A stretch of 64,000 nt of DNA from Skermanella rosea. GTDB lineage: Bacteria > Pseudomonadota > Alphaproteobacteria > Azospirillales > Azospirillaceae. A program made the position numbers and the translations under genes. The notes beneath the pieces are model-generated. The model saw nothing but the letters and a program-made list of their open reading frames with translations, had not been told where the DNA came from and did not search any database. The stretch covers positions 62,001 to 126,000 of the forward strand of contig NZ_CP086113.1 in the NCBI RefSeq assembly GCF_016806835.2, given 5' to 3'. Below are positions 3,156 through 41,684 of the stretch, piece by piece (the stretch's first letter is position 1; each line of letters starts with the position of its first letter).

Positions 3156-4421
3156 GTGACGGCATTCCCATCCACCCTTCGGCGGATCGCGGGCGGCGGT
3201 GCCGGCGACGCGGTGTCCGCGGCGCTGGCGGAAGCGGCCCGCCTCGACGGCCGGCTCCACGCCTTCGCCCACCTGCCGGGCGAGGCTACGGCGCAGGCCG
3301 GCGGCCCGCTCGCCGGGGTGCCGGTCGCGGTCAAGGACATCATCGATACCGCGGACATGCCGACCGGCTACGGCTCGCGGATCGATCCCGATTTCCGGCC
3401 GGCGGCCGACGCCTGGATCGTCGAGCGGATCCGGCGCCTCGGCGGCACCGTGATCGGCAAGACGGTCACGACGGAGTTCGCCTGGCGCAACCCCGGCCCG
3501 ACCGTCAATCCGCACGACGAGTCCCGGACGCCGGGCGGCTCCTCCAGCGGGTCGGCGGCGGCGGTCGCGGCGGGCATCGTCCCGCTGGCGATCGGCACCC
3601 AGACCATCGGCTCGGTGATCCGGCCGGCCGCCTTCTGCGGCGTGGTTGGTTTCAAGCCGAGCTTCGGCGCGATCCCGAGGACCGGCGTCCATCCGCTGGC
3701 GTGGTCGCTCGACCATGTCGGGCTGTTCACCCCGTCGGTCGCGGACGCGGCCTACGCCCTCGGGCATTTCGCGGCGGCGGACCCGTCCGACCCCCACGGC
3801 ATGGTCCCGGACGGCCTGGGCGGCGACGCTTCCGCCCTGCCGGCGCCGCGTATCGCGGTGATCGATCCGCCGGCATGGGATCGGGTCGGTCCCGACCAGC
3901 GGGCCGCCCGCGACCGGGCGGCCGAAGCCCTGGCGGCGGCCGGCGCCATCGTCGAGACGGTCAAGCTGGACGGTGCGTACGGCAGGACCCTGGACGACAT
4001 CATGACCGTGCTGAGGGTGGAGGCCAGGCATATCTTCCGGGACCGCGTCGAGCGGTTTCCCGACCGGACCAGCCGTCATCTCCAGAACCTGGTCAACGAT
4101 GGGCGGGGCATCGACGCGGAAACCTATGTCGGGGCGCTGGGGCGGCAGAAGAGCCTGCGGCACGGCATGGCCTCCCATTTCGACGGGTTCGACGCCGTCC
4201 TGACCGTTCCCGCCACGGGCGAAGCCCCGAAGGGACTGGACGACACCGGCGACCCGGCGCTCTGCGCGCCCTGGACCTTCATCGGCGCCCCGGCGATCAC
4301 CCTGCCCTGCGTCAGGGGGCCGAACGGCATGCCGCTCGGCATCCAGCTGGTGGCGCCCTGGCGGCGGGATGCCCGCCTTCTGGCTGTCGCCGCCTTCGCC
4401 GAGCGCGCCCTGGCATCCTGA
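3156..4421 (+). CDS. Amidase-signature family hydrolase
   Basis: A 421-residue amidase-signature enzyme that should cleave an amide C-N bond. The Ser-cisSer-Lys triad is visible: Lys60 in PVAVKDIIDT, the cis-serine in PGGSSSGSAAA (about Ser130) and the nucleophile in GTQTIGSVIRPA (Ser153). GVVGFKPSFG follows as usual. It starts at GTG with a GGGAGCAGGA ribosome site just upstream and lies 34 bases after the binding-protein gene, so it is probably cotranscribed. No signal peptide is visible, so it would act in the cytoplasm on the imported compound, releasing ammonia or an amine. The exact substrate is unknown. Confidence 0.85.
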   Translation: MTAFPSTLRRIAGGGAGDAVSAALAEAARLDGRLHAFAHLPGEATAQAGGPLAGVPVAVKDIIDTADMPTGYGSRIDPDFRPAADAWIVERIRRLGGTVIGKTVTTEFAWRNPGPTVNPHDESRTPGGSSSGSAAAVAAGIVPLAIGTQTIGSVIRPAAFCGVVGFKPSFGAIPRTGVHPLAWSLDHVGLFTPSVADAAYALGHFAAADPSDPHGMVPDGLGGDASALPAPRIAVIDPPAWDRVGPDQRAARDRAAEALAAAGAIVETVKLDGAYGRTLDDIMTVLRVEARHIFRDRVERFPDRTSRHLQNLVNDGRGIDAETYVGALGRQKSLRHGMASHFDGFDAVLTVPATGEAPKGLDDTGDPALCAPWTFIGAPAITLPCVRGPNGMPLGIQLVAPWRRDARLLAVAAFAERALAS

Positions 4422-4536
4422 GGTCCGGCAGGTTTCCTGATCCAGGTTAATGCGGCCAGGGCGGCGGCGTGCCATCACCGGCCTGTGGGAGGGGACGCGC
4501 GGCGACGCCGTCCGTGACCTTCATGAGGGGCACCAG

Positions 4537-4872
4537 ATGGCCGGATCATCGTGGAAGGCCGCGTTACTGCTGGGCGCGGCGGCAGTCGTCTTCGCCACCG
4601 CCGGAAGCCAGGCGCGGAGCGGCGATCCCGCCGCCGGCGAGCGCCTGGCCGAACGGTGGTGCTCGTCCTGCCACGTCGTCTCGGGAGCCGGGACCGACGC
4701 GGTCCCGAGCCTGGAGGGGATCGCCAGGGGCATTCCCTCCGGCCAGGGAGAGCCGGCCACCGCCCGGGTGAGGCGGTGGCTGGCCGATCCGCACCCGCCG
4801 ATGCCGAACCTGTCCCTGTCGGATGCCGAGATCGCCGACGTCGTGGCCTATCTCGAAACCCTGGCGCGCTGA
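4537..4872 (+). CDS. Small class I c-type cytochrome
   Basis: A 111-residue exported monohaem cytochrome c. An N-terminal hydrophobic signal runs over residues 7-24. The haem motif CSSCH is at 42-46 and the likely sixth ligand is Met89 in HPPMPNLSLSD. The final helix DAEIADVVAYLETL is typical of the fold. I start it at ATG 4537, behind GAGGGG, instead of the in-frame ATG at 4450, whose extra 29 residues would precede the signal peptide. It lies 115 bases after the amidase. Periplasmic electron transfer is clear; the partner enzyme is not in the window. Confidence 0.8.
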   Translation: MAGSSWKAALLLGAAAVVFATAGSQARSGDPAAGERLAERWCSSCHVVSGAGTDAVPSLEGIARGIPSGQGEPATARVRRWLADPHPPMPNLSLSDAEIADVVAYLETLAR

Positions 4873-5819: not shown

Positions 5820-5926
5820 ATTCCTCGTGCCGTCGAGACTCAAGACCGCGCTGCCGTCGCGTCCCGGCCGAAAGGCGGTCGGCGCGGTTACCGGTACATC
5901 CTCGCCGATGCGTTCAAGGCCATGCC

Positions 5927-6688
5927 TCAACGCAGATAGTGGATATGGGGCCGCGCGGAGTGGGCGGTCAGCTCGATGCGCGCCTCGACCGAGAAGACGT
6001 TCCTCAGCAGGTCCTCGGTCAGCACGTCGGCCGGGTGTCCGGACGCGACGACCCTGCCCTGCCTCAGGACGGCCAGCCTGTCGCAGAACATGGCGGCGTG
6101 GTTGAGATCGTGAAGCGCGATGATGCTGGTGACCGGGAGACCGGATACGAGCCTGAGGAGGCCGATCTGGTGCTGGATGTCGAGGTGGTTGGTCGGCTCG
6201 TCCAGGATCAGCTCCTGGGGCGTCTGCGCAAGGGCCCTCGCGATGTGGGCGCGCTGCTTCTCGCCGCCCGACAGGCTTTGCCAGGAGTCGTTGCGTTTCT
6301 CCGTCATGCCGGCCTTCGCCAGCGCGTCCTCGACCGCCTCCTCGTCGGCCGATGACCAGCCCGAGAACATGGAACGGTGCGGGAACCGGCCGAGCTTCAC
6401 GACGTCGACGACCTTCAGGTTGGCGTTCGTCGTCGCGTGCTGCTCGACGAAGGCGACGCGCCGGGCGATCGACTGGCGCGAGATCGCCCGGACATCCTTC
6501 CGGTCGAGCATGACCCGACCGGAATGCGGCCGCTTCAGCCCGGCAAGCAGGCGCAGGAGGGAGGTCTTGCCGGACCCGTTCGGCCCGATCAGGCCGAGCA
6601 TCTCGCCCGGTTCGGCCTCCAGGGAGACCGCATCCAGCACGGTCTTGCCGCCGATCCTCCAGGTAAGCTGTTCGGCCTTGATGCTCAT
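5927..6688 (-). CDS. FecE/FepC-type iron-complex ABC transporter ATPase
   Basis: A 253-residue ATPase of the ferric siderophore/haem/cobalamin importer class. Walker A GPNGSGKTS is at 35-43, the signature LSGGE at 139-143, and Walker B with D-loop LILDEPTNHLD at 160-170. IIALHDLNHAAMFCDR carries the switch histidine. The TNHLD form and the HDLN motif are characteristic of FecE/BtuD relatives. Its ATG overlaps the permease stop by four bases (ATGA), so the two are translationally coupled. It is the last gene of a three-gene operon. Confidence 0.92.
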   Translation of the reverse strand: MSIKAEQLTWRIGGKTVLDAVSLEAEPGEMLGLIGPNGSGKTSLLRLLAGLKRPHSGRVMLDRKDVRAISRQSIARRVAFVEQHATTNANLKVVDVVKLGRFPHRSMFSGWSSADEEAVEDALAKAGMTEKRNDSWQSLSGGEKQRAHIARALAQTPQELILDEPTNHLDIQHQIGLLRLVSGLPVTSIIALHDLNHAAMFCDRLAVLRQGRVVASGHPADVLTEDLLRNVFSVEARIELTAHSARPHIHYLR

Positions 6689-7725
6689 GACGCGCGCTGG
6701 AACCGGTAGAGGATGAGCGAGAAGAAGGGCACGCCGACCAGGGCCGTGACGACGCCGACCGGCAGCGTCTGCTGCGGGATCAGGACCCGCGAAGCGATGT
6801 CCGCCAGCACCATGAAGATCGCTCCGGCGATCGCGCAGGCCGGCAGCAGCCGGATATGCGTGGGTCCCACGAAGAAACGCGCCGCATGCGGCACGACCAG
6901 GCCGACGAAACCGATCGAGCCGACCATGCTGACGATGGTGGCCGTCATCAGCGCGGTCAGGGCGAAGAGCGTGATCCGCGCGCGACCGACATCGACCCCG
7001 AGCGCCGACGCCGCCTCGTCGCCGAAGGCGAAGGCATCGAGGACCCGCGCGGCGGTCAGGCACGCCGCAAGTCCGAGGCCGACGACGATGGAGACCAGCA
7101 TGAACTCGGGCCAGCGCACGCCGCCGAAACTGCCGAGCAGCCAGAACATCACGTCGCGCGCCTGCTGCGCATTGCCCGAGGTCGTGACGATGTAGGACGT
7201 GGCGGCGTTGAAGAGCTGCGATGCGGCGACGCCGGCCAGGATCGTGCGGTCGGCGCCGCCGCGCGTGCCGTTCGACAGCAGCGCGACGAAGAGGAAGGCC
7301 GCGAAGGCTCCGGCGAAGGCGCCCGCCGACAGCGACAAGGCTCCGGACCCGATGCCGAGGATGACGATCGCGACGGCGCCGGAGGAGGCGCCGGCCGAAA
7401 TCCCGAGGACATAGGGTTCGGCGAGCGGATTGCGCAGGAGCGACTGCATGATCGCCCCCGACAGCGCCAGGCCGGCGCCGCAGAAGGCTGCGACCAGCGC
7501 CCGGCTGAGCCTGTAATCCCAGATCACGGTCTCGTGGATGCGGCTCAGTTCGACCGTCGTCCATCCCAGCCGGTTGGTCACGGCGGACCAGGTCGTGGAG
7601 AGGGGGATCGGCAGGTCGCCGATGCCCACGCTGATTCCGACGACGAGGGCGATGGCCAGCAGGGAGGCCAGGAACGTGCCTCCCAGGACGGTCAACCGGC
7701 CGACGATGCGCTGCGTTCCGGTCAC
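6685..7725 (-). CDS. FecCD-family ABC transporter permease
   Basis: A 346-residue permease with about ten membrane segments, the fold of BtuC/FecCD. Family motifs include YRLSRALVAAFCGAGLALSGAIMQSLLRNPLAEPYVLGIS and, near the end, GFVGLVVPHAAR (each shown only in part or loosely here). The start is GTG at 7725, giving a GTGA overlap with the binding-protein stop. It forms the homodimeric channel for the ATPase downstream. The substrate class is ferric siderophore, haem or cobalamin. Confidence 0.9.
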   Translation of the reverse strand: MTGTQRIVGRLTVLGGTFLASLLAIALVVGISVGIGDLPIPLSTTWSAVTNRLGWTTVELSRIHETVIWDYRLSRALVAAFCGAGLALSGAIMQSLLRNPLAEPYVLGISAGASSGAVAIVILGIGSGALSLSAGAFAGAFAAFLFVALLSNGTRGGADRTILAGVAASQLFNAATSYIVTTSGNAQQARDVMFWLLGSFGGVRWPEFMLVSIVVGLGLAACLTAARVLDAFAFGDEAASALGVDVGRARITLFALTALMTATIVSMVGSIGFVGLVVPHAARFFVGPTHIRLLPACAIAGAIFMVLADIASRVLIPQQTLPVGVVTALVGVPFFSLILYRFQRAS

Positions 7726-8747
7726 TTCACCAGACCGAGCGTCTTCAATTGCCCGGCCACCTGCTCGGCCCCATAGAGGGTGCGGACGGTCGGGTTCATC
7801 GCCTGGCCGTCCATGACGACCATCGCCTTGTTCTTCACCGCGGGCATCTGGCTGACGGCCGGATCGGTGGTCAGGAACTTGATCTTGGCTTCCGACTTGT
7901 CGAGCTCCCACCGGTTGCGGTCGAGGCTGGCGACGACGATGACATCGGGATTGGCGGCCATGATGCCCTCCCAGCCGAGCGTCGGCCATTCGGCCTCCGT
8001 CGTGATGGCGTTGGTGCCGCCGAGCAGATCGACGATGAAGCCGGACGCACCGTTCTTGCCGCCGAGAAAGGCGTCGGCGGCCGGCGACGGGCTCGAGAAC
8101 CAGAAGACGTAGGAAAGCTTCCGGTCGGCTTTCGGGACGACGGCGCGGAGCGCCATCTCGCGCGCCTTGAAATCGGCGATCAGCGCCTGGCCGCGGTCGG
8201 CGACGTCGAAGATCCGCGAGAGTTCGTCGATCTCCTTGTAGAGCAGGTCTATGCTCCAGAGTTGCGCGCGGCTGCCGTAAACGTCCTTGGCACCTTGGGT
8301 ATCGAGGCATGTGCTGGGCGACAGGTAGGTCGGGACGCCGACCTTGTCGAAGTCCCCGCGCTTGGCGACCTTGCTGTTCGGGCCGAGCAGGCTGGGCAGC
8401 GCCGCCGCGACGAAATCCGGGTCTTCGGCGAGGATGGATTCGAAGGTCGGGAACTCGACGGTCAGGAGCTTGACCTTCGCGTTGGCCTCGGCAAGCTGGG
8501 GCAGGACCGCGCTGGGCCAGAAGGCGGTTCCGACCATCCTGTCCTGAAGGCCGAGGAGCAAGAGGATCTCGGCGCTGTTCTGGCCGAGGCCGATCACCCG
8601 CGCCGGAGCCTTCCGGAAGGTGACCTGCGTCCCGCAGTTCTCGATGGTCAGCGGATAGCGCGTCGGCTCGGCCGAGGAGGGGGTCGCGCCAAGGCTGACC
8701 AGAGCAAACAGGCCGGATACGGTCAGGAGTGATTTCAAGAGGTTCAT
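7722..8747 (-). CDS. FecB/BtuF-type periplasmic binding protein
   Basis: A 341-residue class III binding protein, first gene of the importer operon. A Sec signal peptide covers residues 1-26 (cleavage near SSA-E). The mature start has the family pattern RYPLTIENCGTQVTF followed by PARVIGLGQNSAEILLLLGL. The two lobes are joined by a long helix around residue 190. Ligands in this family are ferric siderophores, haem or vitamin B12. A Fur-box-like site about 190 bases upstream favours iron. No TonB-dependent receptor is in the window. Confidence 0.88.
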   Translation of the reverse strand: MNLLKSLLTVSGLFALVSLGATPSSAEPTRYPLTIENCGTQVTFRKAPARVIGLGQNSAEILLLLGLQDRMVGTAFWPSAVLPQLAEANAKVKLLTVEFPTFESILAEDPDFVAAALPSLLGPNSKVAKRGDFDKVGVPTYLSPSTCLDTQGAKDVYGSRAQLWSIDLLYKEIDELSRIFDVADRGQALIADFKAREMALRAVVPKADRKLSYVFWFSSPSPAADAFLGGKNGASGFIVDLLGGTNAITTEAEWPTLGWEGIMAANPDVIVVASLDRNRWELDKSEAKIKFLTTDPAVSQMPAVKNKAMVVMDGQAMNPTVRTLYGAEQVAGQLKTLGLVK

Positions 8748-9204
8748 GGGAGCGTCCTAAGCCGGGTGGTCTTCTCGGTTGGTCGAGGATGGTCCGCTCG
8801 CTGCCGTGGGCCGACCGGTCGCGCCCGACGACGGCCCGATGTCCGAAGAAGCCGCGGAGCGTTCCAGGGGCATCCCCGGACCCTCGGCCCCGCCGTCACG
8901 AGGTGCCTTCGGGCGGTCCGCCTGCGCGCGCGCATCCAATAATGCGAATGCGTCTCAAGAACAAGGTGTTTCTATCCGCCGGCTTGCCGCGAGCCGTCCC
9001 GATGACGCGGGTCCGTCGGCTGGAGGACGTTTCCACCCCGGCACCGACGGCTTGTCGCGCGTGTTTCCCGTTTTCGGGCAGTGCCGCCGATCGCACGCTC
9101 CCGCACGGTCCGAACCCGGAAGACACCGTGCCTGTGCCGGTCGTCGCGGCGGCCCTGCCCGACCGGCAAGAAAGCTTCTTCGACACTTCACGGCAACGTC
9201 ATCC
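8748..9204. other. Intergenic region between the iron importer and the ptx wreck
   Basis: About 450 bases without a gene I can support. It must contain the promoter of the minus-strand importer and, towards 9204, that of the ptx remnant. The only notable pieces are an AT-rich Fur-like site at 8938-8958 and a CCGTCGG/CCGACGG inverted pair around 9015-9055. Conserved cobalamin riboswitch boxes are not present. Confidence 0.4.
8938..8958 (-). promoter_or_regulatory. Possible Fur box for the iron importer
   Basis: The plus strand reads CCAATAATGCGAATGCGTCTC at this AT-rich spot. It resembles proteobacterial Fur boxes of the AATGCGAATnATTCTCA kind but departs from them in the middle. It is placed about 190 bases before the binding-protein start codon. 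Support is moderate at best. Confidence 0.3.
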
Positions 9205-9248
9205 GCAATCGAACCGTGGTTTCCTGCTGGAAACCACGGTTCGATTGC
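9205..9248. repeat. Perfect 20-bp inverted repeat with TGCT loop
   Basis: The arms 9205-9224 and 9229-9248 are exact reverse complements over 20 bases (left arm begins GCAATCGAACCG), separated by TGCT. The right arm ends 12 bases before the GAGGAAG ribosome site of the ptxA remnant. It could be an operator, an attenuator or the scar of an excised element. No T-run follows it. Such perfection is striking beside a decayed operon. Confidence 0.8.
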
Positions 9249-9268
9249 AAAGGATGATCGAGGAAGCC

Positions 9269-10072
9269 ATGCTTCACATCACCGGGATGGGGGTGACCTA
9301 TCCGAACGGCGTGCAGGCGCTGAAGCCGATCACGCTCGCTTTCCGGCCCGGCGAGTTCGTCGTCCTGCTCGGCCGGTCGGGTGCCGGCAAGTCCACGCTC
9401 CTGCGCTGCCTGAACGGCCTGGTGGCACCGACCGAGGGAGAGGTCCGGGTCGACGGCCTCGGCCGGCTGTCCGAGCCCGGCGTGCTTCGGCGCCACCGCC
9501 GGCGGACCGGCATGGTGTTCCAGCACCACCACCTGATCGGCCGCCTTGCCGCGCTGTCCAACGTGCTGACCGGCCGGCTCGGCTATCATTCGCCGTGACG
9601 CACGCTGCTGCCGCTGCCGCGGGCGGACCGGCTGGTGGCGCTGGAATGCCTGGATCGCGTCGGGCTCAAGGACCGTGCCCTGACCCGGGTCGACGAGTTG
9701 AGCGGCGGACAGCGCCAGCGAGTCGGCGTCGCCCGGGCGCTGGCCCAGGAACCGGCGCTGATCCTCGCCGACGAGCCGGTGGCCAGCCTCGACAGCAAGC
9801 CGATCTTCGAAAGCATGGTCAACCGCGGGCTGGTGAGCCGCGACAAGGTGGCGGTGATCACCGAGTCCGCCCCGTTCCCGCAATATCCCTGGACCATGCG
9901 CTCGGACCTGGAACCTGGGCTGAAGCAGCGCATCCGGGCCGCCTTCCTGGACCTGAAGGACCCCGCCGTGTTGAAGCCCTTCAAGGCCGACGGCTTCGCG
10001 CCGATCGCCGATGGGGACTATGACGTCGTCCGCGAACTGGCGACGCTCCTCGGCCTCGACCTGACCCAGTAG
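9269..10072 (+). pseudogene. Fused remnant of ptxA (ATPase) and ptxB (binding protein)
   Basis: The first part is a phosphite/phosphonate ABC ATPase (PhnC/PtxA): Walker A GRSGAGKST, VFQHHHLIGRL and later [15 protein letters not shown] and [10 protein letters not shown]. An in-frame TGA at 9596-9598 falls where relatives have Trp (GYTPFWRT becomes GYHSP-stop-RT), and the same frame simply continues after it. After [10 protein letters not shown] (about 9788) the frame passes without a break into the C-terminal third of a PtxB-type binding protein, with [12 protein letters not shown] and [17 protein letters not shown]. So the end of ptxA and the front of ptxB were deleted in frame. It cannot make a working transporter. 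Confidence 0.85.
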
Positions 10073-10084
10073 CGGCAAGCCGCA

Positions 10085-10663
10085 GGGATGGGCGCGATCG
10101 GGCGTGCCATCGCCGGGCGGCTCGCCGGGTTCGGCGCCGACCTCGTCTTCTGGGACCGCCGGCCGGCCGACGCCGCGGCCGGGATTGCGCCGGGACTGCG
10201 CCGGCTGGACCGGGCCGACCTGTTCGCCACCTCCGACATCCTGGTGGTGGCGCTCCCGTTGACCGACGGGACGCTGCACCTGATCGACCGAGCCGCCCTG
10301 GCGACGGTCAAGCCCGGCGCCCTGCTGGTCAATCCGGCGCGCGGCAGCGTGGTAGACGAGGCGGCGGTCGCCGACGCGCTGGCCGCCGGGCACCTGGGCG
10401 GCTACGCCGCCGACGTGTTCGAGATGGAAGACTGGGCCCGCCCCGACCGCCCGCGCGGGGTCGACCCGCGGCTGCTCGCCGACCGCGACCGCACGCTGTT
10501 CACGCCCCACCCGGGATCGGCGGTCGGCCGGGTCCGCCTGGCCATCGAGCGCGAGGCCGCGGCGAACATCATCGACGTGCTGGAGGGCCGGGCGCCGCGC
10601 GGTGCCGTCAACCGGCCCGACGCGGCGGCCCTGGGTCTCCGGGCCGGGACGGCGGGATGCTGA
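10085..10663 (+). pseudogene. ptxD: Phosphite dehydrogenase remnant lacking its N-terminal half
   Basis: The frame begins exactly at the Rossmann glycine motif [13 protein letters not shown] and runs to the end of a D-2-hydroxyacid dehydrogenase. It carries the PtxD signature [15 protein letters not shown], then [10 protein letters not shown] and [11 protein letters not shown]. PtxD is about 336 residues; roughly the first 150, which include the substrate-side domain, are missing. The homology starts 13 bases after the ptxB stop, so ptxC and the front of ptxD were removed together. The catalytic His-Glu region survives in part, but the protein is not expected to fold as an enzyme. It overlaps the LysR gene by seven bases. 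Confidence 0.82.
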
Positions 10664-11520
10664 ACCTCTGGCACGTCGCCGCCTTCCTGGCGGTGGTCGA
10701 GACCGGCAGCTTCCACGAGGCGTCGCGGCGGCTCGGCGTCGCCCAGCCGACCGTGTCCCTGCATGTCAGGAGCCTGGAGGAGGCGCTGGGTGCGACGCTG
10801 ATCGTCCGCGGCCGGGCGCGCAGCATCCCCAGCATCGACGGCTGCCGGTTCCTGCCCTATGCCCGCAGCCTGATGGCGGTGGCCGAACGGGCGCGCCTCA
10901 CGATCGCCGGGCGGGATGTCGGCATCGGCGCCAGCAGCAACATCGGCATCTACCTGCTTCAGCCGCACCTGAAGCGCATCGCGGAGCTGGAGGGCGGCAG
11001 GGTCCGGTTCGAGCTCGGGATCGGCCCCAATCCCGACATCGTCGCCAAGCTGGAAGCGGGCGAGATCGACATCGCGGTCCTGGAATGGTGGGACGACCGC
11101 CCCGGGTTCGTGGCCCGGCGCTGGCGGCGCGAACGGCTGGTCATCATCGTGTCGCCGGACCATGCCTGGGCCGGCCGCGCCGGCGTCACGGTGGAGGAAC
11201 TGGCGACCCAGCCGCTGCTGGGCGGCGAGCCCGGCACCGGGACCGGCACGCTGCTGCGCCGGGCGCTGGGCGACGCGGCCGGGCTGCTGCGCGTGGACCG
11301 GGCGCTGGGCAGCACCGAGGCGGTCAAGCACGCGGTCAGGGCCGGGCTCGGCGTGTCGCTGGTGGCCGAGAGCTCGGTGGCCGAGGAGGTGCGGCACGGC
11401 ACGCTGGCGGCCGTCTGCCTGGACGGCGTCACGCTGGAGAAGGACCTCCAGGTCGTGCTGCCGGCGGCACTGCCGGACAGTTCGGCCCCCGCGCGCATCG
11501 CCGGCCTGCTGCTCGCCTGA
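10657..11520 (+). CDS. ptxE: LysR-family regulator, PtxE-like
   Basis: A 287-residue LysR-type regulator. The winged helix-turn-helix is at about residues 15-45 ([27 protein letters not shown]), shown here loosely, and a periplasmic-binding-like effector domain follows from about residue 90. In ptx loci the order is transporter genes, ptxD, then the LysR gene ptxE, and this gene overlaps the ptxD remnant by seven bases in just that position. It looks intact and has no frameshift, although everything it would have controlled is broken. The name rests on context. Confidence 0.75.
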
Positions 11521-12027
11521 AGGGGCGGCATCAGGCTCCGGGGCGATCCGGATCCGGCACCTCGACGAAGCGGATCGTGCCATTTCGGCACCCTGTCGAT
11601 TTGGTTCGAGAATGAGGTTGATGCAGCGGCTTTTCGAAAGCGTGTGGCGGCGATCAGAACCTGAACCTCGACCAGCACGCTTGGCCCACCATCCCTGCGC
11701 ATCGGCCATCGCAAGGCCGAACCATCCGCCACATGCTGGAGCACGAATCCGGAGCCTGACTTCCGCCGGATGCCGCAGGGCTCGGCGTCACCAGGATCCC
11801 GGGCGGCCATGGGACGGCAGCCGGTCAGGCCCTGGCCGCGTGGTTGCACGGTTTGATACCGAACTGCCGCTGCTGCATTCTTTTGCTGATCGCCGCGATC
11901 CGTTCGCCATCGCGCTGTTGGACTAGCCGCCGCCCTGTGTGACGAGCAGTCCCGGTCCTTCCTTGACTGGCCTGAAGCGTGACACGGATATCTGTCAATC
12001 ACCCTGTCTGGAGCTCACCTGCCCGCT
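11521..12027. other. Gene-free stretch
   Basis: About 500 bases between the LysR gene and the helicase. No frame has a convincing start, ribosome site and family. A short stretch near 11718-11759 reads RTIRHMLEHESGA-stop, faintly like the beta-lactamase-fold serine hydrolase motif IRHLLTHTSG, but it is too short to claim. The region is probably debris plus the helicase promoter. Confidence 0.4.
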
Positions 12028-13755
12028 ATGCCATTCCCATCTCTCGACCCCGCGTTGCTGGAAGCCCTGTCCGCGCGTGGCTATGCCGAGCCGACGGCGG
12101 TGCAGGCCGCAGTGCTGCAGCCGGAGGCCCTTGGGCGCGACCTGCTGGTCTCGGCCCAGACCGGTTCGGGCAAGACAGTCGCCTACGGCCTGGGCGCGGC
12201 CCCGGATCTCCTCGACCCGGACAGGGGCGACGGAAGATCCCGTCCGCCCCGCATGCTGGTGATTGCGCCGACACGGGAGCTGGCGTTGCAGGTCGGCGGC
12301 GAACTGGAATGGCTGTATGCCCGGCTCGGGTTCCGGATCGTCACCTGCGTCGGAGGCACCGACATGCGCCGGGAACGTCGCGCCCTGGCTGACGGCGCCG
12401 ACGTGGTGGTCGGAACACCGGGACGGCTGCGCGATCACCTGGAGCGGGACGGCCTGGATGCAACCGCTTTGCGGGTAGTGGTGCTCGACGAGGCCGACGA
12501 GATGCTGGACCTCGGCTTCCGCGAGGACCTCGAGGCTATTCTCGACGAGACGCCGCCGGAGCGCCGCACCCTGCTGTTCTCCGCCACCGTGCCGCGGGGC
12601 ATCGCAGCCCTGGCCAAGCGGTACCAGCGCAACGCGTTGCGGATCGAGGCGACCGCGGGCGGCGAGCCGCACGGCGACATCGAGTACCGTGCCATGCTCG
12701 CGGCACCGCTGGAAACCGAGCGCGCCCTGGTCAACGTGCTGCGTTATTTCGAGGCCCGAGGCACGCTGGTGTTCTGCGCTACCCGTGAGGCGGTGGCGCG
12801 GCTTCAGGGCAATCTGCTGGAGCGGGGCTTCTCGGCGGTGGCTTTGTCGGGGGAACTCGGCCAGGCGGAACGCACCCGGGCGCTGCAGTCGCTGCGCGAC
12901 GGCCGGGCGCGGGTCTGCGTGGCGACCGACGTGGCGGCGCGCGGCATCGACCTGCCGGACCTTGGCTTGGTGGTTCACGCCGACCTGCCGCGCGACCCGG
13001 CAACGCTGCTGCATCGAAGCGGGCGCACGGGTCGGGCCGGCCGCAAGGGAACCTGCGTCCTGCTCGTGCCGCACACGCGACGCCGGGCCGCCGAACGCCT
13101 CCTCAGGGAAGCTGGTGTGCAAGCCGCCTGGTCCGCCCCGCCGGCCGCCGAGGAGGTGCTGGCACGCGACCGCGAGCGGCTGGAGCGCGAAGCGATATCC
13201 CTCGCCGCCGAGGACGTGTCGGAAGACGATCTCGCCGTGGCCAGGACCCTGCTGGCGGAACGCGATCCCGAGCGCATCGCGGCCGCCCTGGTGCGCGCAT
13301 TACGCGCGCCGCTGCCCGCCGCCGAGGAGCTCTCGGCGGGCGCTGACGGCGGGGATCGGCGCGACCGGTCCGAGCGACCGCAAGACGGCGGGAGCAATGA
13401 AGATTATGCCCGGTTCCGGATCAACATCGGCCGGGCAGGCAATGCCGACCCGCGTTGGCTGCTGCCGTTCCTGTGCCGTCGGGGGCACGTGACCCGCAAA
13501 GAGATCGGCCGCATCCGCGTGTTCGACCGCGAAACCGAGTTCGAGGTGACCAGCAGCGCGGCCGCCCGGTTCATCGCGGCGATCCGGCGCAAGCCATCCG
13601 GGCCGGACGGGCGGGACGGCGACGACGGCGAGATCCGGATCGAGCCGGTGCGCGATGGAGGTCCGCGCCGCAACGCGAGCGCTCGCCAGCGCGATCGTGG
13701 CCCGATACCGCCGAAGCGCCCAAGCCGGGCTCCGGCACCGGCCCGGGGCGCGTGA
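12028..13755 (+). CDS. DEAD-box ATP-dependent RNA helicase with DbpA-like RNA-binding tail
   Basis: A 575-residue RNA helicase. Motifs in order: motif I AQTGSGKT (43-50), Ia PTREL (81-85), II DEAD (154-157), III SAT (185-187), and VI HRSGRTGRAG near 337. A linker of about 80 charged residues leads to a DbpA/DeaD-type RNA-binding domain, FRINIGRAGNADPRWLLPFL and RRGHVTRKEIG, and then a basic, disordered tail. It is likely to act in ribosome assembly or mRNA remodelling, especially in the cold. It stands alone and converges with the transketolase operon. Confidence 0.93.
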   Translation: MPFPSLDPALLEALSARGYAEPTAVQAAVLQPEALGRDLLVSAQTGSGKTVAYGLGAAPDLLDPDRGDGRSRPPRMLVIAPTRELALQVGGELEWLYARLGFRIVTCVGGTDMRRERRALADGADVVVGTPGRLRDHLERDGLDATALRVVVLDEADEMLDLGFREDLEAILDETPPERRTLLFSATVPRGIAALAKRYQRNALRIEATAGGEPHGDIEYRAMLAAPLETERALVNVLRYFEARGTLVFCATREAVARLQGNLLERGFSAVALSGELGQAERTRALQSLRDGRARVCVATDVAARGIDLPDLGLVVHADLPRDPATLLHRSGRTGRAGRKGTCVLLVPHTRRRAAERLLREAGVQAAWSAPPAAEEVLARDRERLEREAISLAAEDVSEDDLAVARTLLAERDPERIAAALVRALRAPLPAAEELSAGADGGDRRDRSERPQDGGSNEDYARFRINIGRAGNADPRWLLPFLCRRGHVTRKEIGRIRVFDRETEFEVTSSAAARFIAAIRRKPSGPDGRDGDDGEIRIEPVRDGGPRRNASARQRDRGPIPPKRPSRAPAPARGA

Positions 13756-24768: not shown

Positions 24769-24915
24769 CCATCGCGGGCGGGCGGCAGCAAACGCGGCCC
24801 CGTGGCTGCTCCCGGCGCCGAAGGGCCGGTCATCGGCAAGCTTCCTCGGGACTGTTTTCCGAACTGCGGGAACGGTGATGCGCAATCCACCTTGCCAGTC
24901 CGGATGATTGCTTTA

Positions 24916-24929
24916 TGATAACGTTACCA
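24916..24929 (+). promoter_or_regulatory. LacI-type operator upstream of the PhyH-family gene
   Basis: TGATAACGTTACCA differs at one position from the perfect palindrome TGGTAACGTTACCA with the central CG typical of LacI/GalR operators. It lies about 77 bases before the ATG at 25006. Close relatives occur at 29118-29131 and 31490-31503, both in front of genes next to the LacI gene at 29152. Confidence 0.65.
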
Positions 24930-25005
24930 AAAAATGGTCTCATCGAACTGCGACATCATCAAGGCGGCGCGGGGATGCCGCGCCGGTTTTCGGCAGGGAG
25001 GAACG

Positions 25006-25890
25006 ATGATTTCGGAAACGGATATCCGCTCCTACGCGGAGAACGGCTTCCTCGTGGTCCAGAACGTGCTGTCCGCGCAGGAGGTCGCGGCCCTGCGCGC
25101 GGTGACGGACGAGTTCATCGCCCGCTCGCGCGAGGTCAGCAGTCACGACGCCGTCTATGACCTGGAACCGGGCCATAGCGCGGCCGAGCCGCGGGTGCGC
25201 CGGATCAAGACACCGCACCTGCAGCATGAGGTCTATGACGGCATCGCCCGTCATCCCCGCATCCTCGAGATCCTGCGGAAGCTGGTCAGCCCGGCGATCC
25301 GCTTCGACACGTCCAAGCTCAACGTAAAGGCGGCGAACTACGGTGCCGCGGTCGAATGGCACCAGGACTGGGCCTTCTATCCCCATACCAACGACGATCT
25401 CGCCGCGGTCGGCGTCATGATGGACGACTGCGAGGTGGAGAACGGACCGCTCCTGTGCATTCCCGGAAGCCACCGCGGGCCGGTGCTCGACCATCATTCG
25501 GACGGCGAGTTCTGCGGCGCCATCGATCCGTCGGAGTCGGACATCGATTTCGGCGCGGCGGTCCCGCTGACCGGCCCGGCGGGAAGCGTCAGCATCCACC
25601 ATGTCCGGACGATCCACGGCTCGGCCACGAACGTCTCGTCCAAGCCGCGCCGCCTGCTGCTCTTCCAGTACCGCGCCGCCGACGCCTGGCCGCTGGTCGG
25701 CTCCCAGCAGCCGTCCTGGCAGGAGTGGCAGGCGTTGATGCTGTGCGGCGACGACCCCTCGGTGACCCCGCGGTCGACCGCCGTGCCGGTCCGCCTGCCG
25801 CTGCCGCCATCGCGTCATCAGGGCTCCATCTACGAAAATCAGCGGACCTTGAAGAACGCCTATTTCACCAGGTCCAAGGCGGCCGTCTGA
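25006..25890 (+). CDS. Phytanoyl-CoA dioxygenase (PhyH) family Fe(II)/2-oxoglutarate oxygenase
   Basis: A 294-residue non-haem iron oxygenase. The metal triad is visible as His119 and Asp121 in EWHQDWAFYP and His204 in VRTIHGSATN; Arg215/216 in SSKPRRLLL is suitable for 2-oxoglutarate. Such enzymes hydroxylate or otherwise oxidise small acids. I start at ATG 25006, behind GGGAGG. A LacI-type operator upstream ties it to the sugar-acid genes beyond the convergent TRAP operon. The substrate is not known, and oxidation of a modified sugar acid is only an inference. Confidence 0.85.
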   Translation: MISETDIRSYAENGFLVVQNVLSAQEVAALRAVTDEFIARSREVSSHDAVYDLEPGHSAAEPRVRRIKTPHLQHEVYDGIARHPRILEILRKLVSPAIRFDTSKLNVKAANYGAAVEWHQDWAFYPHTNDDLAAVGVMMDDCEVENGPLLCIPGSHRGPVLDHHSDGEFCGAIDPSESDIDFGAAVPLTGPAGSVSIHHVRTIHGSATNVSSKPRRLLLFQYRAADAWPLVGSQQPSWQEWQALMLCGDDPSVTPRSTAVPVRLPLPPSRHQGSIYENQRTLKNAYFTRSKAAV

Positions 25891-25963
25891 CCGGCGGCGG
25901 TTCATCCTCAACCCCTCCCGGCGATCGGGTGACAGGCGGTTAAGCTTCAGCGCCGGGGATTCG

Positions 25964-25993
25964 GAGCTGCCGGGCCGGGGGGCCCGGCAGCTC
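25964..25993. terminator. Bidirectional hairpin terminator
   Basis: The arms GAGCTGCCGGGCC (25964-25976) and GGCCCGGCAGCTC (25981-25993) pair perfectly over 13 bases around GGGG. It lies between the convergent ends of the PhyH gene (25890) and the TRAP large subunit (25998) and would serve both. Confidence 0.75.
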
Positions 25994-25997
25994 TGCC

Positions 25998-27311
25998 TCA
26001 CCCCATCAGGCTCGGAAGCAGCGTCGCGATGCCGGGAAACAGCATGACGAGCATCAGCGCCGCGATCTGGAGCAGGATGAAGGGCAGCAGGCTGCTGAAG
26101 ATCGTGTGCAACTCGATCTCCGGCGGCGCGACGCTCTTCAGGTAGAAGGCCGCCGGGCCGAAGGGCGGGGTCAGGTACGACACCTGCATGTTCATGCAGA
26201 ACAGCACGCCGAACCACACCGGATCGTAGCCCAGCGCCTTGATCACCGGCACGAAGATCGGCATGGTCAGCAGGCAGATGCCGATCCAGTCCATGACGAA
26301 GCCCAGCACCAGCAGGATTCCCATCATCACCAGCAGGATGCCGAACGGCGGGAGCGGAAGGTCTCCGATCGTCTGGCGCAGGTAGGTCGTGCCGCCCATG
26401 ATGTTATAGATGCCGATGAAGGCGTTGGCGCCCAGGGTGAGCCAGATGATCACGCCGACCGTGATCATCGTCCGCATGGCCGACTCCCGAAGCATCCTGA
26501 AGTTCAGCTCGCCCCGGGCCGCCGCGGCGATAATGGCGCCCAACGCCCCCACGCCCGCGGACTCGGTAACCGAGGCGATGCCGCCATAGATGCTGCCCAG
26601 CACCCAGATCACCACCAGGATCGGCAGGATCAGGCCTTTCAGCAACTTCATCTTCTGCCCGAACGGGATATCCAGCTCCTCGCGCGGCGGGCGCGGGGCC
26701 AGCGCCGGGTTCAGGATGCAGCGGATCATGACATAGGCGATGTAGAACGCCGCGAGCAGCAGTCCGGGCAGCGCCGAGGCGAGGAACAGTTCGCTGATCG
26801 ACACGCCGGCCGTCAGCCCGTAGACGATCAGGACGACCGACGGGGGTATCATGGTGCCGAGCGACCCCCCGGCGCAGATGATCCCGATGGCGAGCTTCCT
26901 GTCGTAGCCCAGACGCATCATCTGGGGCAACGCGATCAGGCCCAGCAGGACGATCTCCCCGCCGATGATTCCGGTCATCGCCGCCATGACCACCGCGACC
27001 AGGGTCGTCTGCACCGCGACTCCGCCCGGCAGGTTGCCGGCGAACAGGCGCATGGCGTCGTACAGGTCCCTGGCCACTCCCGACCGCTCCAGGATGCAGG
27101 CCATCAGGACGAACAGGGGGATCGCGACGAAGACGTATTCGTTGACGAAGCCATAGACGCGGCTCGCGACGAGCGGCAGCCCGGCGGGACCCAGCCAGGC
27201 CAGCGTGCAACCGATGGCGAGGCTCATCGTGATCCATGCCAGCGGCACGCCGGCGATCATCAGGCCGACCATGATGGCGACGATGAGAAGGGAAATGGTT
27301 GCGATATCCAC
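25998..27311 (-). CDS. dctM: TRAP transporter large permease subunit (DctM family), second system
   Basis: A 437-residue multi-helix TRAP permease. Motifs include VFVAIPLFVLMACILERSG, MTGIIGGEIVLLGLIALPQM and the C-terminal VSYLTPPFGPAAFYLK. It starts at GTG, overlapping the TAG of the small subunit by one base. The insertion ALAPRPPREELDIPFGQKMK between helices is characteristic of the larger FcbT3-like branch that transports carboxylates and sugar acids. It ends at a strong convergent terminator. Confidence 0.92.
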   Translation of the reverse strand: MDIATISLLIVAIMVGLMIAGVPLAWITMSLAIGCTLAWLGPAGLPLVASRVYGFVNEYVFVAIPLFVLMACILERSGVARDLYDAMRLFAGNLPGGVAVQTTLVAVVMAAMTGIIGGEIVLLGLIALPQMMRLGYDRKLAIGIICAGGSLGTMIPPSVVLIVYGLTAGVSISELFLASALPGLLLAAFYIAYVMIRCILNPALAPRPPREELDIPFGQKMKLLKGLILPILVVIWVLGSIYGGIASVTESAGVGALGAIIAAAARGELNFRMLRESAMRTMITVGVIIWLTLGANAFIGIYNIMGGTTYLRQTIGDLPLPPFGILLVMMGILLVLGFVMDWIGICLLTMPIFVPVIKALGYDPVWFGVLFCMNMQVSYLTPPFGPAAFYLKSVAPPEIELHTIFSSLLPFILLQIAALMLVMLFPGIATLLPSLMG

Positions 27312-27832
27312 TATGGCCCGCCTTCGCCGGGGGTCCCCTTGCCGGCCGGCGCCGCCGCGCCGCTCCCTGTGAGTTCCCGGGCCACGAGGATCAGCAGCTG
27401 AAGCAGCACGAGGATCGCCGCCACGGTGATCAGGGGCTTGATGATGGCCGGCGTCGGGGCATCCCAGGCACCGCCGGTGCGCTCGCCGATGGTGACGGCG
27501 CGCAGGCCGGACTTCCACGACGCCGCGACCAGGCCGGCCATGGCGAAGATGCCGACCAGATGGCCGAAGAGCTTCATCGCCCGTTTGACGCGCAACGGGG
27601 CGACGTCCTGGAGACTGGTCACCGCGATGTGCGCCTCGGCCTTGGTGACGGCGCCGCCGGACAGCAGGTACCCGACGGCGCACAGCAGGATGGTGAGGTC
27701 GAAGGACCAGGATGTCGGGGAATTGAGGATGTACCGCATCAGCACCTCGTAGGCGATGACCGGTACCGAAAGCATGTAGAACCACGCCACGGCCCCACCG
27801 AGGAGGTCGTTCAGCCGTTCGATCCAGCGCAT
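27311..27832 (-). CDS. dctQ: TRAP transporter small permease subunit (DctQ family), second system
   Basis: A 173-residue four-helix DctQ protein, with YEVLMRYILNSPTSWSFDLT as the family motif. It lies between the binding-protein gene (52 bases upstream) and the large subunit, overlapping the latter by one base. The C-terminal 20 residues are Gly/Pro-rich and probably disordered. Confidence 0.85.
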   Translation of the reverse strand: MRWIERLNDLLGGAVAWFYMLSVPVIAYEVLMRYILNSPTSWSFDLTILLCAVGYLLSGGAVTKAEAHIAVTSLQDVAPLRVKRAMKLFGHLVGIFAMAGLVAASWKSGLRAVTIGERTGGAWDAPTPAIIKPLITVAAILVLLQLLILVARELTGSGAAAPAGKGTPGEGGP

Positions 27833-27884
27833 GGAGATCTCCCTGGAAGGGGAGCCCGGCCTTGAGGCTGGGCGTTCGGTACGG

Positions 27885-28928
27885 TCAGTCCTGGAGCAGG
27901 CCGATCCCCTTCATGAACTTCACCTGCGCCGCATAGGCCTTCTCCGCCAGCGGATCGCCCTGTGCGTAGTCGCGCCACGCCTCGACCGCGATCGCGCGGA
28001 ACTTGTCCCGCTCCGCCTGCGGCCAGTCCACCACGTCGATCCCCGCCGCGAGGTCGCGGGCGACGAGTTGGCGGTCGTTGATGTCGTTGCGCATGCGCAG
28101 GTCGTCGATCATCGCCCGGTACCAGACGTCGAGGATCGTCTTGTGCGAGGCGCTGAGCGCGTCGTAGGCGGCCTTGTTGACCGTGAAATGGATCAGCGGC
28201 ATGGAGTGGATACCGGGATAGACCGGGTGCTGGGCGATCTTGTTGAAGCCCAGGCTGTCGTTCATCGTGTAGGTCGAGAAGTCGGCCGCGTCGACCACGC
28301 CCTTGTCGATGCCGGAGAAGGTCTCCGCCGCCGGCAGCACGACGACCGACGCGCCCGCCCGCTTGAAGACTTCCGACGCCAGACCTTCGGGTGCGCGGAC
28401 CTTCTTTCCCTTGAAATCCTCGACGCTCCGGATCGGCACCTTGGCCACGAAGGCCTCGCGGGCGATCGGGCTGCATCCGATCACCTGGACAGTGCCGTCG
28501 GTGAACTTGTCGTAGGCTTCCTGAAGCAGTTCGCGGCCGCCGCCGTGATAGCAGAACATGCTGATCTGCTCGGGGCGGTCATACCCGGCGATCAGGTCGC
28601 CGAGGATGGAGAACGCCTTGTTGCGTCCGGTGAAGTAGGTGGTGGCGGTGATGTCGCCCTGCAGGATGCCCTGTCCGATGGCGTCCATGGTCTCGTTGTA
28701 GGGGACGACCGATCCGACGGGCGTCAGCTCGATCGTCAGCTTGCCGTCGGTCATCTCCGCCAGCCGGGGCAGCCAGTATTTCTCGATATCCGTATAGAAG
28801 GACTCGCCGGCGGTCATCGACGTTTGGACACGCCAGGTCTCGGCCTGGGCGGAGATCATCGTGGCCGCCAGGGCCATGACGGACGCCAGACCCGCGACGG
28901 CAAGCATGGAACACCTTGTTCTCGGCAT
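27885..28928 (-). CDS. dctP: TRAP transporter substrate-binding protein (DctP family), second system
   Basis: A 347-residue exported binding protein. The signal peptide runs to about residue 29 (ISAQA-E). The mature protein begins ETWRVQTSMTAGESFYTDI, and the ligand arginine is in GKKVRAPEGLASEVFKRAG. A second hallmark is GIDKGVVDAADF. I chose the ATG at 28928 because GGAGGGG lies just upstream. A LacI-type operator at 29118-29131 is upstream. Acidic sugar substrates are likely from the neighbouring dehydratases. Confidence 0.9.
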   Translation of the reverse strand: MPRTRCSMLAVAGLASVMALAATMISAQAETWRVQTSMTAGESFYTDIEKYWLPRLAEMTDGKLTIELTPVGSVVPYNETMDAIGQGILQGDITATTYFTGRNKAFSILGDLIAGYDRPEQISMFCYHGGGRELLQEAYDKFTDGTVQVIGCSPIAREAFVAKVPIRSVEDFKGKKVRAPEGLASEVFKRAGASVVVLPAAETFSGIDKGVVDAADFSTYTMNDSLGFNKIAQHPVYPGIHSMPLIHFTVNKAAYDALSASHKTILDVWYRAMIDDLRMRNDINDRQLVARDLAAGIDVVDWPQAERDKFRAIAVEAWRDYAQGDPLAEKAYAAQVKFMKGIGLLQD

Positions 28929-29117
28929 TTTCCCCTCCCGTTATTTCTTGTCCGTGATTTGTTGCTTGCCGGCTTTGGCCGGCGCAGTTCCTCCCGCTGC
29001 TTTCCCTGCCCGACCGGATCGGGCCAGACCGATCGGGCCTATCTGATCGGGCCTATCTGGCGGCCCGGGTCAGGGACGACCGTGCCGTCCCGCCCGTTTC
29101 ATCCTCAAAGATAACAA

Positions 29118-29131
29118 TGGTAACGTCAACA
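29118..29131 (-). promoter_or_regulatory. LacI-type operator upstream of the second TRAP operon
   Basis: TGGTAACGTCAACA matches the palindrome TGGTAACGTTACCA at 12 of 14 positions. It lies in the 223-base gap between the LacI gene and the TRAP binding-protein gene, about 190 bases before the latter's start. An additional AGATAAC sits immediately to its left. Confidence 0.55.
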
Positions 29132-29151
29132 ATGAATATGTTGGAATGGTG

Positions 29152-30180
29152 TCAGCGGGAACCGCGCGGAGCCGGCCCGCAGGAGCTTCGGAGGACCACC
29201 TGCGAGGGGAGGATCACCTGCTGCGGGGCCGCGGCCTGGGCGGTGAGCCGGCGCAGCATCAGGTCGGCGGCCAGCTGGCCGATTTCGTTGAAGTCGCGGA
29301 CGATGCACGTGATCTCGGGGGTACAGACCAGGGCCATGTCGTCGGTATCGATGCCGATGACGGACAGTTCGGCCGGAATGGCCCGGCCCAGGGCGCGCGA
29401 TGCCAGGATCACGCCGCGCAGCAGGCGGTTGCCGTCGGCGATTATGGCGGTCGGCGGGGTCGGCCCCTCGAGCAGCGTCAGGGCCGGGACGCTGCCGGCG
29501 GCGGTCGCCGCCGAAACCTGCACGACCGTCGCGTTGGACTCCGCGATCCCGGCCTCGGCCGCGGCGGTCCTGAAGGCGGTGGACCGCTCGGTCACCGGCC
29601 GGATGCGCAGCTCGGGCACCAGGAGGGCAATGCGTCGATGGCCGAGCTGGATCAGATAGCGCACGACTTCGCGCATCGCCGTGGCATGGTCGCAGATCAC
29701 GGAATCGACCTCGGCGTTCAGCGGCAATGTCCGGTCGAGCACCACCACGGGCGTCTTGAAGCGGCGCAGGGTGGTCAGCAACTCCGGGTCCGCCTCGTCG
29801 GATACGTACAGGACGACGCCGTCCACCTGCCTGGTCTGAAGCGACGCCAGCGCCTTCGCCTCGCGCACCGGGTTGAGCGCGCTGCTGGCCAAGAGCATGC
29901 CGAAGCCGGCTTCCGCCAGCCGCCGTTCGGCGGCCTGGGCAACGGCGGCGTTCGGATAGTTGGTCAGGTCGGGCACCAGGAAACCGATCGTGCCGGTCAG
30001 GTTGGTCCGCATCGCCCGCGCCGCGAGGTTGGGCAGGTATCCCAGGGTGCGCATCGCTTCCTCCACGCGCAGGCGGGTGTCGGGATGGACCAGCCCGGAA
30101 CCGTTCGCCACCCGGGACACAGTGATGTTGGAGACGCCGGCCGCCTTGGCCACGTCCTTCAAAGTCGGGCGGTTCTGCAT
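29152..30180 (-). CDS. LacI-family transcriptional regulator of the sugar-acid genes
   Basis: A 342-residue LacI/GalR repressor. The N-terminal helix-turn-helix and hinge read TLKDVAKAAGVSNITVSRVA and, further on, LGYLPNLAARAM. The sugar-binding-like core follows, with GFLVPDLTNY and a closing effector lobe. I start at ATG 30180, 95 bases from the divergent enolase-family gene. Three palindromes of the type this family reads lie near the PhyH gene, the TRAP operon and the second dehydratase gene, which makes it their likely regulator. Confidence 0.88.
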   Translation of the reverse strand: MQNRPTLKDVAKAAGVSNITVSRVANGSGLVHPDTRLRVEEAMRTLGYLPNLAARAMRTNLTGTIGFLVPDLTNYPNAAVAQAAERRLAEAGFGMLLASSALNPVREAKALASLQTRQVDGVVLYVSDEADPELLTTLRRFKTPVVVLDRTLPLNAEVDSVICDHATAMREVVRYLIQLGHRRIALLVPELRIRPVTERSTAFRTAAAEAGIAESNATVVQVSAATAAGSVPALTLLEGPTPPTAIIADGNRLLRGVILASRALGRAIPAELSVIGIDTDDMALVCTPEITCIVRDFNEIGQLAADLMLRRLTAQAAAPQQVILPSQVVLRSSCGPAPRGSR

Positions 30181-30275
30181 CCGGAAAAAGTCGCTTCTCG
30201 ATGGTGGGCAACCGGCAGGAAACGTTCGAAGCCGATCCTGCGGATAGCCGGCATTCAACAGCAAGGGTAAAGGCG

Positions 30276-31457
30276 ATGCAAATCGAAGCGGTGGATTTCT
30301 TCTATGTCAAGATGCCCGACGTGACGACGGAGGGCGACGGCAGCCAGGACGCGCTGCTCGTCAGGGTCGCGGCCGGAGGTTATGTCGGATGGGGCGAATG
30401 CGAAGCGGCGCCGCTGGTCTCCATCGCCAGCCTCGTCTGCCCGCGCAGCCACGGCGCCTGCCAGCCGGTCATCGCCTCCGTCCTGGGTCAGGCGTTCGAC
30501 ACGGCCGCCGACATCGCCCGCATCGCCCGGCTGGTGAAGCGCAACAGCCTGGACCTGCTGCAGACCGACCACACGCTGTCGGGGATCGAGATCGCCCTGT
30601 GGGACCTGCTCGGCAAGCGCCGCCAGGAGCCGGTCTGGCGTCTCCTGGGGTACGACCGCGCCTATGCCAAGAAGCCCTATGCTTCCGTGCTGTTCGGCGA
30701 CACGCCGGAGGAAACCCTGGAGAAGGCCCGCGGCATCCGGGCCCGGAACTTCAAGGCCGCCAAGTTCGGTTGGGGTCCCTATGGTACCGGATCGGTCGAC
30801 GCGGACCGCGACCAGGTCCACGCCGCGCGGGAGGGGCTGGGTCCGGACGGCATCCTGCTGATCGATGCCGGAACGGTTTGGGAGGACGACGTCCAGGCCG
30901 CCGCTGCCAGGCTTCCGGCACTCGCCGAAGCGGGGGCGACGTGGCTGGAGGAACCCTTCGTCTCCGGCGCGATCGAGGCCTATGCGGCGCTTGCCCGGCA
31001 GTCGCCGGTCCGTCTCGCCGGCGGCGAGGGGTGCCATGACGTTCACATGGCCCGCCACATGATCGATGGCGCCGGCCTCGGCTTCGTCCAGATCGACACA
31101 GGACGTATCGGCGGCATCGGCCCGGCCTTCGAGGTCGCGCGTCACGCCGCGGCCAGGGGCGTGACCTTCGTGAATCACACCTTCACGTCCAACCTCGCGC
31201 TCAGCGCGTCGCTCCAGCCGTTCGCGGGACTGGCCGGCCATGAGATCTGCGAGTACCCGATCGAAACCAAGCCGGTCGCGCGCGACCTGACCGTGGAACG
31301 GCTGGTTCCCGATGCGGACGGGATGATCAGGCTGCCCGACCGGCCCGGCCTGGGCATGACGATCGACTTCGAGACCGTGCGCCGCTATCTGGTCGAGGTG
31401 CGCATCGAGGTGGACGGCGCGACGCTCTACGAGACGCCGCCGGTGCCGGCGGGCTGA
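30276..31457 (+). CDS. Enolase-superfamily (mandelate racemase/MLE group) sugar-acid dehydratase-like enzyme
   Basis: A 393-residue enolase-superfamily protein that should abstract a proton alpha to a carboxylate. The N-terminal capping domain covers residues 1-125. In the barrel, candidate metal ligands are the Asp in LLIDAGTVWED, the Glu in TWLEEPF and the Glu in LAGGEGC; FKAAKFGWGPYG carries a likely acid/base lysine. FVNHTFTSN near residue 300 provides a histidine. It differs clearly from its neighbour at 31572, so two distinct reactions are likely. An AAGGGTAAAGG leader precedes the ATG. Substrate unknown. Confidence 0.82.
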   Translation: MQIEAVDFFYVKMPDVTTEGDGSQDALLVRVAAGGYVGWGECEAAPLVSIASLVCPRSHGACQPVIASVLGQAFDTAADIARIARLVKRNSLDLLQTDHTLSGIEIALWDLLGKRRQEPVWRLLGYDRAYAKKPYASVLFGDTPEETLEKARGIRARNFKAAKFGWGPYGTGSVDADRDQVHAAREGLGPDGILLIDAGTVWEDDVQAAAARLPALAEAGATWLEEPFVSGAIEAYAALARQSPVRLAGGEGCHDVHMARHMIDGAGLGFVQIDTGRIGGIGPAFEVARHAAARGVTFVNHTFTSNLALSASLQPFAGLAGHEICEYPIETKPVARDLTVERLVPDADGMIRLPDRPGLGMTIDFETVRRYLVEVRIEVDGATLYETPPVPAG

Positions 31458-31489
31458 TCCGCCGGGCGCTTGCCGTCCGGCCGAGCTTA

Positions 31490-31503
31490 TGGTTACGTTA
31501 TCA
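31490..31503 (+). promoter_or_regulatory. LacI-type operator upstream of the galactonate-dehydratase-like gene
   Basis: TGGTTACGTTATCA matches TGGTAACGTTACCA at 12 of 14 positions. Read on the other strand it differs from the site at 24916 by one base. It lies about 69 bases before the ATG at 31572 and suggests that the downstream two genes have their own LacI-controlled promoter. Confidence 0.6.
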
Positions 31504-31571
31504 TCAAGAATATCATACCGGACGGCGCAGCCTCCCGGAGGCTGCGATCGGGACCGGGGCGGGAGGACCAG

Positions 31572-32744: not shown

Positions 32745-32796
32745 TCCGCCGCCGCATCTTTGCGCCGATCGCCAGTCCGTCGCCAGAGGAGTCGCC

Positions 32797-35236: not shown

Positions 35237-35237
35237 C

Positions 35238-39673: not shown

Positions 39674-39739
39674 TCCCCGATCCCTCATCCCCGACCACGG
39701 ACTCGATTACCCAAATTCACCGGAAACCGGAGAACAACG

Positions 39740-40765: not shown

Positions 40766-40810
40766 CGGACAAGCCCGGCGCATCCGGAGCAGGACGTGAA
40801 AGAGGTTACC

Positions 40811-41629: not shown

Positions 41630-41684
41630 CCACAATCCCCCCTCCCGGAAAGCAGCCGGTGAAGACACCGGCGAACGAGGCGAC

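Follow-up and report, generated by a model that had tools for sequence, protein, structure and literature searches.

Remains of a ptxABCDE phosphite-oxidation operon, very probably inactivated recently, in a Skermanella genome, and the intact operon at the corresponding position in Skermanella mucosa

The ptxABCDE operon of Pseudomonas stutzeri WM88 is the type case of phosphite oxidation by ptx genes. It is named in PMC10433651 and PMC5700983. The closest counterpart of the locus described here is an intact ptxABCDE operon on plasmid pSM-1 of Skermanella mucosa KEMB 2255-438 (NZ_CP086107.1, 376082-380560), whose five open genes are annotated as phnC, phnD, phnE, an NAD(P)-dependent oxidoreductase, and a LysR regulator. 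Our locus lies within the window, i.e., the whole 64,000-nucleotide stretch analyzed, which corresponds to positions 62001-126000 of contig 3 (529,001 bp) of a Skermanella genome of 7.76 Mb in 7 contigs. It resembles the WM88-type operon in that, among solved structures, its PtxB and PtxD pieces are closest to PtxB and phosphite dehydrogenase, but it keeps no complete importer or dehydrogenase. The following features make up the locus:

9269-9792, (+) strand: 5′ part of ptxA, 174 codons plus 2 bases, with an in-frame TGA inside (from the comparison with S. mucosa)
Between 9792 and 9793: junction of deletion 1, with 899 bp missing (NZ_CP086107.1 376621-377519)
9793-10072, (+) strand: 3′ part of ptxB, codons 194-285 plus the stop (from the comparison with S. 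mucosa and PDB matches)
Between 10084 and 10085: junction of deletion 2, with 1313 bp missing (NZ_CP086107.1 377812-379124)
10085-10663, (+) strand: 3′ part of ptxD, codons 153-342, with the native stop lost and two extra codons
10657-11520, (+) strand: ptxE, a LysR-type regulator, open, 287 aa, with both LysR domains

Searches with the individual pieces gave a consistent picture. Specifically, the 14 best PDB sequences for the PtxD piece (10088-10660) were all phosphite/phosphonate dehydrogenases (E 1.7e-56 to 3.1e-50), and the next match was a "dehydrogenase," 2d0i, at E 7.5e-23. The PtxB piece matched 5jvb (phosphonate-binding protein), 5lv1 (PtxB), and 5o2j (PtxB) at E 8e-28 to 5e-25, compared with 0.013 for HtxB. 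The top NCBIfam model for the ptxA pieces was PhnC (TIGR02315), and the regulator carries HTH_1 and LysR_substrate domains. These matches agree with an earlier sequence-only reading, which had recognized a ptxA-type ATPase, the end of ptxB, half of ptxD, and a LysR gene; the pieces stand on the (+) strand, in ptx order, at the positions it gave, and no better matches to unrelated proteins emerged for the PtxB and PtxD pieces.

The comparison with S. mucosa places the pieces at the site of the intact operon. Iron-chelate importer genes directly adjoin ptx in S. mucosa, and the window has the same neighbor. Wherever stretches are shared, DNA identity is 96-98% and gene order is common: the importer (5926-8797) is 97.5% identical and ungapped, the stretch with the ptxA piece (8915-9792) 96.6% with two gaps, the ptxB piece (9793-10084) 98.3% and ungapped, and the ptxD-ptxE stretch (10085-11581) 96.1% and ungapped. 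Past ptxE, from 11581 onward, the replicons are rearranged relative to each other. Judging by these alignments, the window locus and the S. mucosa operon are the same locus at the same site; an intact operon at a different site in a relative, which would have spoken for a separate gene set, was not what S. mucosa offered. By descent, the locus is ptxABCDE: homologous pieces stand in operon order at the site of the sister's intact operon, with a LysR-type ptxE downstream. What sets the two apart is that the S. mucosa operon is intact, whereas in the window 899 and 1313 bp are missing and ptxA is interrupted by a stop.

With ptxA codons numbered from the ATG at 9269 (the annotated S. mucosa start lies 5 codons earlier), deletion 1 takes ptxA from inside codon 175 to its end together with ptxB up to codon 193, joining the two genes in frame. 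Deletion 2 starts 12 nt past the ptxB stop, spans all of ptxC, and ends at ptxD codon 152. The sequence-only reading had described a ptxABCDE relic decayed by two deletions, without the end of ptxA, the front of ptxB, all of ptxC, and the front of ptxD, and had proposed mapping the ends against a sister genome; the junctions listed above, mapped against S. mucosa, bear out both the description and the two deletions. It had overlooked three further lesions. First, an in-frame TGA stands at 9596-9598 in ptxA, where S. mucosa has Trp110 (among 76 aligned relatives, this position is Leu in 52, Trp in 18, and a stop in none). Second, the native stop codon of ptxD is lost, and the frame extends by two codons. 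Third, PtxD carries Leu295Pro, adjoining the histidine of the TPH motif, which we take to be catalytic. At position 295, the 81 aligned PtxD relatives have Ile in 61 cases, Leu in 19, Thr in 1, and Pro in none, and none has Gly at position 163, where the window shows Glu163Gly, although many of the 81 are close kin and the residue counts are not independent. A lysine that presumably also has a role in PtxD falls in the missing front part.

As a result, a whole PtxA ATPase is absent (owing to the TGA and the deleted 3′ part), PtxB is reduced to codons 194-285, no ptxC match was found within the window, and PtxD retains only codons 153-342 with Leu295Pro. With the ATPase, binding protein, permease, and dehydrogenase all incomplete or missing, phosphite import and PtxD-type oxidation are not expected. 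A search for a second ptxD elsewhere in the genome found none, the next best match being 41% identical.

Taken together, the window locus is very probably a recently inactivated assimilatory phosphite-oxidation operon, ptxABCDE. In the ancestor shared with S. mucosa, PtxABC would have imported phosphite as an ABC transporter, PtxD would have oxidized it as an NAD-dependent dehydrogenase, and PtxE would have served as a LysR regulator. The window lineage would then have lost the central part of the operon through two deletions of ~1 kb and acquired a nonsense mutation that cut ptxA; we infer the loss of function as well as any order of these events. The loss may have been tolerated because the habitat holds little phosphite or because C-P lyase and PhnCDE provided a back-up. 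This is ordinary gene loss in a known system, in the form of an unusually well-resolved pseudo-operon. A literature search returned nothing linking Skermanella with phosphite and, at the level of titles and the beginnings of abstracts (phosphite, ptxD, pseudogene), nothing on ptx decay. What the locus offers is a base-resolved loss of a phosphite-oxidation operon, with an intact operon at the corresponding place in the sister and a further reduced-phosphorus system retained. The latter system is as follows:

34095-42851, (+) strand: C-P lyase and phosphonate importer genes phnGHIJKL-CDE-M, all open

This set starts 22.6 kb past ptxE, in line with the sequence-only statement that a complete C-P lyase operon is kept 23 kb away. 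Its presence raises an alternative outcome, namely that the ptx locus is a relic and phosphite would still be used through C-P lyase with the PhnCDE importer, ptx having become redundant. All of phnG, H, I, J, K, L, C, D, E, and M are present and open, and P. stutzeri and E. coli are reported to grow on phosphite via the C-P lyase operon, albeit more slowly than via ptxABCD (PMC11933879), so loss of ptx need not end phosphite use. On the other hand, PhnJ occurs in two of five Skermanella genomes, the window genome and S. mucosa, and the latter holds the C-P lyase set together with intact ptx; the presence of C-P lyase alone thus does not explain the loss, and redundancy has not led to loss in S. 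mucosa. We consider such rerouting quite possible, if somewhat on the doubtful side. It concerns the consequence of the decay and is compatible with recent inactivation of the operon. The earlier view of a lineage that formerly used phosphite and is now giving it up is partly borne out, in that the loss is seen in one genome; a trend across the lineage goes beyond that single genome, since the sister kept the operon and C-P lyase may allow slower use. With an intact sister and a retained C-P lyase, whether phosphite use was lost or rerouted is directly testable.

Next, we considered how ptxD is distributed among relatives. Among 82 Azospirillaceae genomes searched (an order-level search gave the same number), only three had a PtxD match with E <1e-51, at 61-100% identity: S. 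mucosa (whole), the window genome (residues 151-342), and G056, a member of another genus (residues 121-331, 61% identical to S. mucosa). In the other 79 genomes, the best match had an E-value of 9e-51 or weaker, with 32-42% identity among the matches listed; these include the other three Skermanella genomes, none of which had a PtxD-like match (best 35-36% identity). One of these three Skermanella genomes, G078, has the iron importer at 88%, and the 18 kb around it gave a single match to a ptx protein, namely a 32% match to ptxA located on the ATPase of the importer itself. Two of the three family PtxD loci are therefore truncated, by different deletions across ptxC-ptxD. On G056 contig 17 (L014/L127), a draft contig of 3.9 kb, ptxA and ptxB are followed by ~67 ptxC codons that run into ptxD in another frame, the deletion extending from about ptxC codon 67 to ptxD codon 121-130. 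The locus thus resembles the window in having a deletion that runs from ptxC into ptxD, but its deletion ends differ, its ptxA and ptxB are undeleted, and its PtxD is only 61% identical to that of S. mucosa, for which reasons we read it as an independent event. Repeated ptxC-ptxD loss within one family appears worth a look, on two cases. That such loss is recurrent in Azospirillaceae and favored by selection, e.g., through a cost when another reduced-phosphorus route is present, seems unlikely. For annotation, the two loci carry a warning: taking matches to ptxB, ptxD, or ptxE as phosphite use would mis-score both the window strain and G056.

Outside the family, 191 places encode a relative; the best 80 of these, together with G056, gave 81 loci for examination, several of which are cut by contig ends. 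No ptxA, ptxB, or ptxC match was found within 5 kb of ptxD in three of them (L023, L027, and L069), and L091 has only a ptxA-like match within that distance. Asterisks appear in the alignments of 30 of 81 ptxD, 2 of 76 ptxA, and 1 of 77 ptxB sequences; with the last 25 alignment columns set aside, only L094 was flagged for a stop, in ptxC. At this locus (3515-4830, in a deltaproteobacterial MAG), a ptxB fragment runs into a stop-containing end of ptxC, and the ptxD that follows is whole.

The region around ptx served as a control. Matching stretches of S. mucosa contain 68 annotated genes, 54 of which were tested; the other 14 fall in unaligned sequence or are truncated by stretch ends. In the window, 46 of the 54 are stop-free and complete at either end to within 4 residues. 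The remaining eight are ptxA, ptxB, ptxC, ptxD, an MFS gene, and AbrB, short hypothetical, and VOC genes, the last three located at the margins of matching blocks or beyond them. Decay is thus concentrated at ptx, and general decay of the region is ruled out. The MFS transporter gene, 50 kb away, has lost most of its length to a third clean deletion relative to S. mucosa (1057 bp, between 61935 and 61936), so deletion is not unique to ptx. Just before phnG, a 9-kb block (24830-33711) with TRAP transporter, LacI, enolase-superfamily, and dihydrodipicolinate-synthase-like genes separates two stretches that are contiguous in S. mucosa; there, the block is found ~29 kb away. The two replicons are mosaics of shuffled blocks.

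The divergence of the pieces bears on the age of the decay. Their dN/dS values against S. mucosa (ptxA 0.20, ptxB 0.21, and ptxD 0.19) are like that of the working fecB gene (0.19), suggesting that most of the divergence predates the decay and that the decay is recent. Low values of this kind carry no sign of long drift and would fit only a recent inactivation. In comparison, the dN/dS of ptxE (0.47) is the second-highest among the 46 genes (median 0.11), largely because it has the smallest dS of the set; its dN ranks eighth, and its changes comprise 9 silent and 11 replacement substitutions. Among these 11, the window carries the relatives' usual residue at two (A14V and T134A) and S. mucosa at two others (T60I and H68Y). 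At most, ptxE shows a weak hint of drift, and we do not count it as drifting. Full polarizing of the substitutions is precluded by the distance of the ptx relatives other than S. mucosa, which are ~60% identical or less in PtxD. Separately, the ptxD piece (10085-10654) has a dS of 0.131 versus 0.038-0.045 in ptxA, ptxB, and ptxE, i.e., ~3 times the silent divergence. A mutation cluster beside the deletion 2 junction was dismissed as too weak (≤11 substitutions per 100 bases; permutation p 0.043 over 10085-11520).

Could the deletions be artifacts of assembly, with the living strain still carrying a whole operon? Both ptx junctions are clean and without shared bases, none of the five Skermanella genomes has a Ku match, and a third clean deletion of similar size occurs in the same window, all of which lends this idea some weight. 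However, three of the lesions (the nonsense change in ptxA, the missing ptxD stop, and Leu295Pro) are of a different kind, being substitutions; the nearby genes are open and full length in 46 of 54 cases; and the contig measures 529 kb in a 7-contig assembly. We therefore consider assembly error very improbable. As for how the deletions arose, recombination between short repeats was rejected given the lack of shared bases at either ptx junction, and Ku-dependent end joining given the lack of a Ku match in all five genomes. A last reading is that a new functional gene has arisen, either from the ptxA-ptxB fusion or from what remains of ptxD. Deletion 1 leaves an open 145-aa frame from the GTG at 9635, an in-frame ATG stands at 10088 in the PtxD piece, and the dN/dS of the pieces is low. 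This reading nevertheless has next to no chance of being right: the fused frame begins only after the ATPase's nucleotide-binding front half and continues into the end of a periplasmic binding protein; codons 1-152 are missing from the PtxD piece, which also carries Leu295Pro; and the low dN/dS probably reflects mostly the time before decay.

A scan of 8700-12050 detected no promoter-like sites and one terminator-like site, where 1.1 would be expected. One further feature lies just upstream of the ptxA piece:

9205-9248, no strand assigned: perfect inverted repeat of 20 bp with a 4-nt loop

It occurs at a single place in the genome and in none of the four other Skermanella genomes (≤2 mismatches), and it was accordingly rejected as a dispersed element. 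In S. mucosa, the right arm is the same and the left arm imperfect, and the stretches around the repeat, folded as DNA, reach −31.4 kcal/mol in the window versus −13.9 kcal/mol in S. mucosa. The repeat looks like a quasi-palindrome that may have been perfected by template switching in the window lineage.
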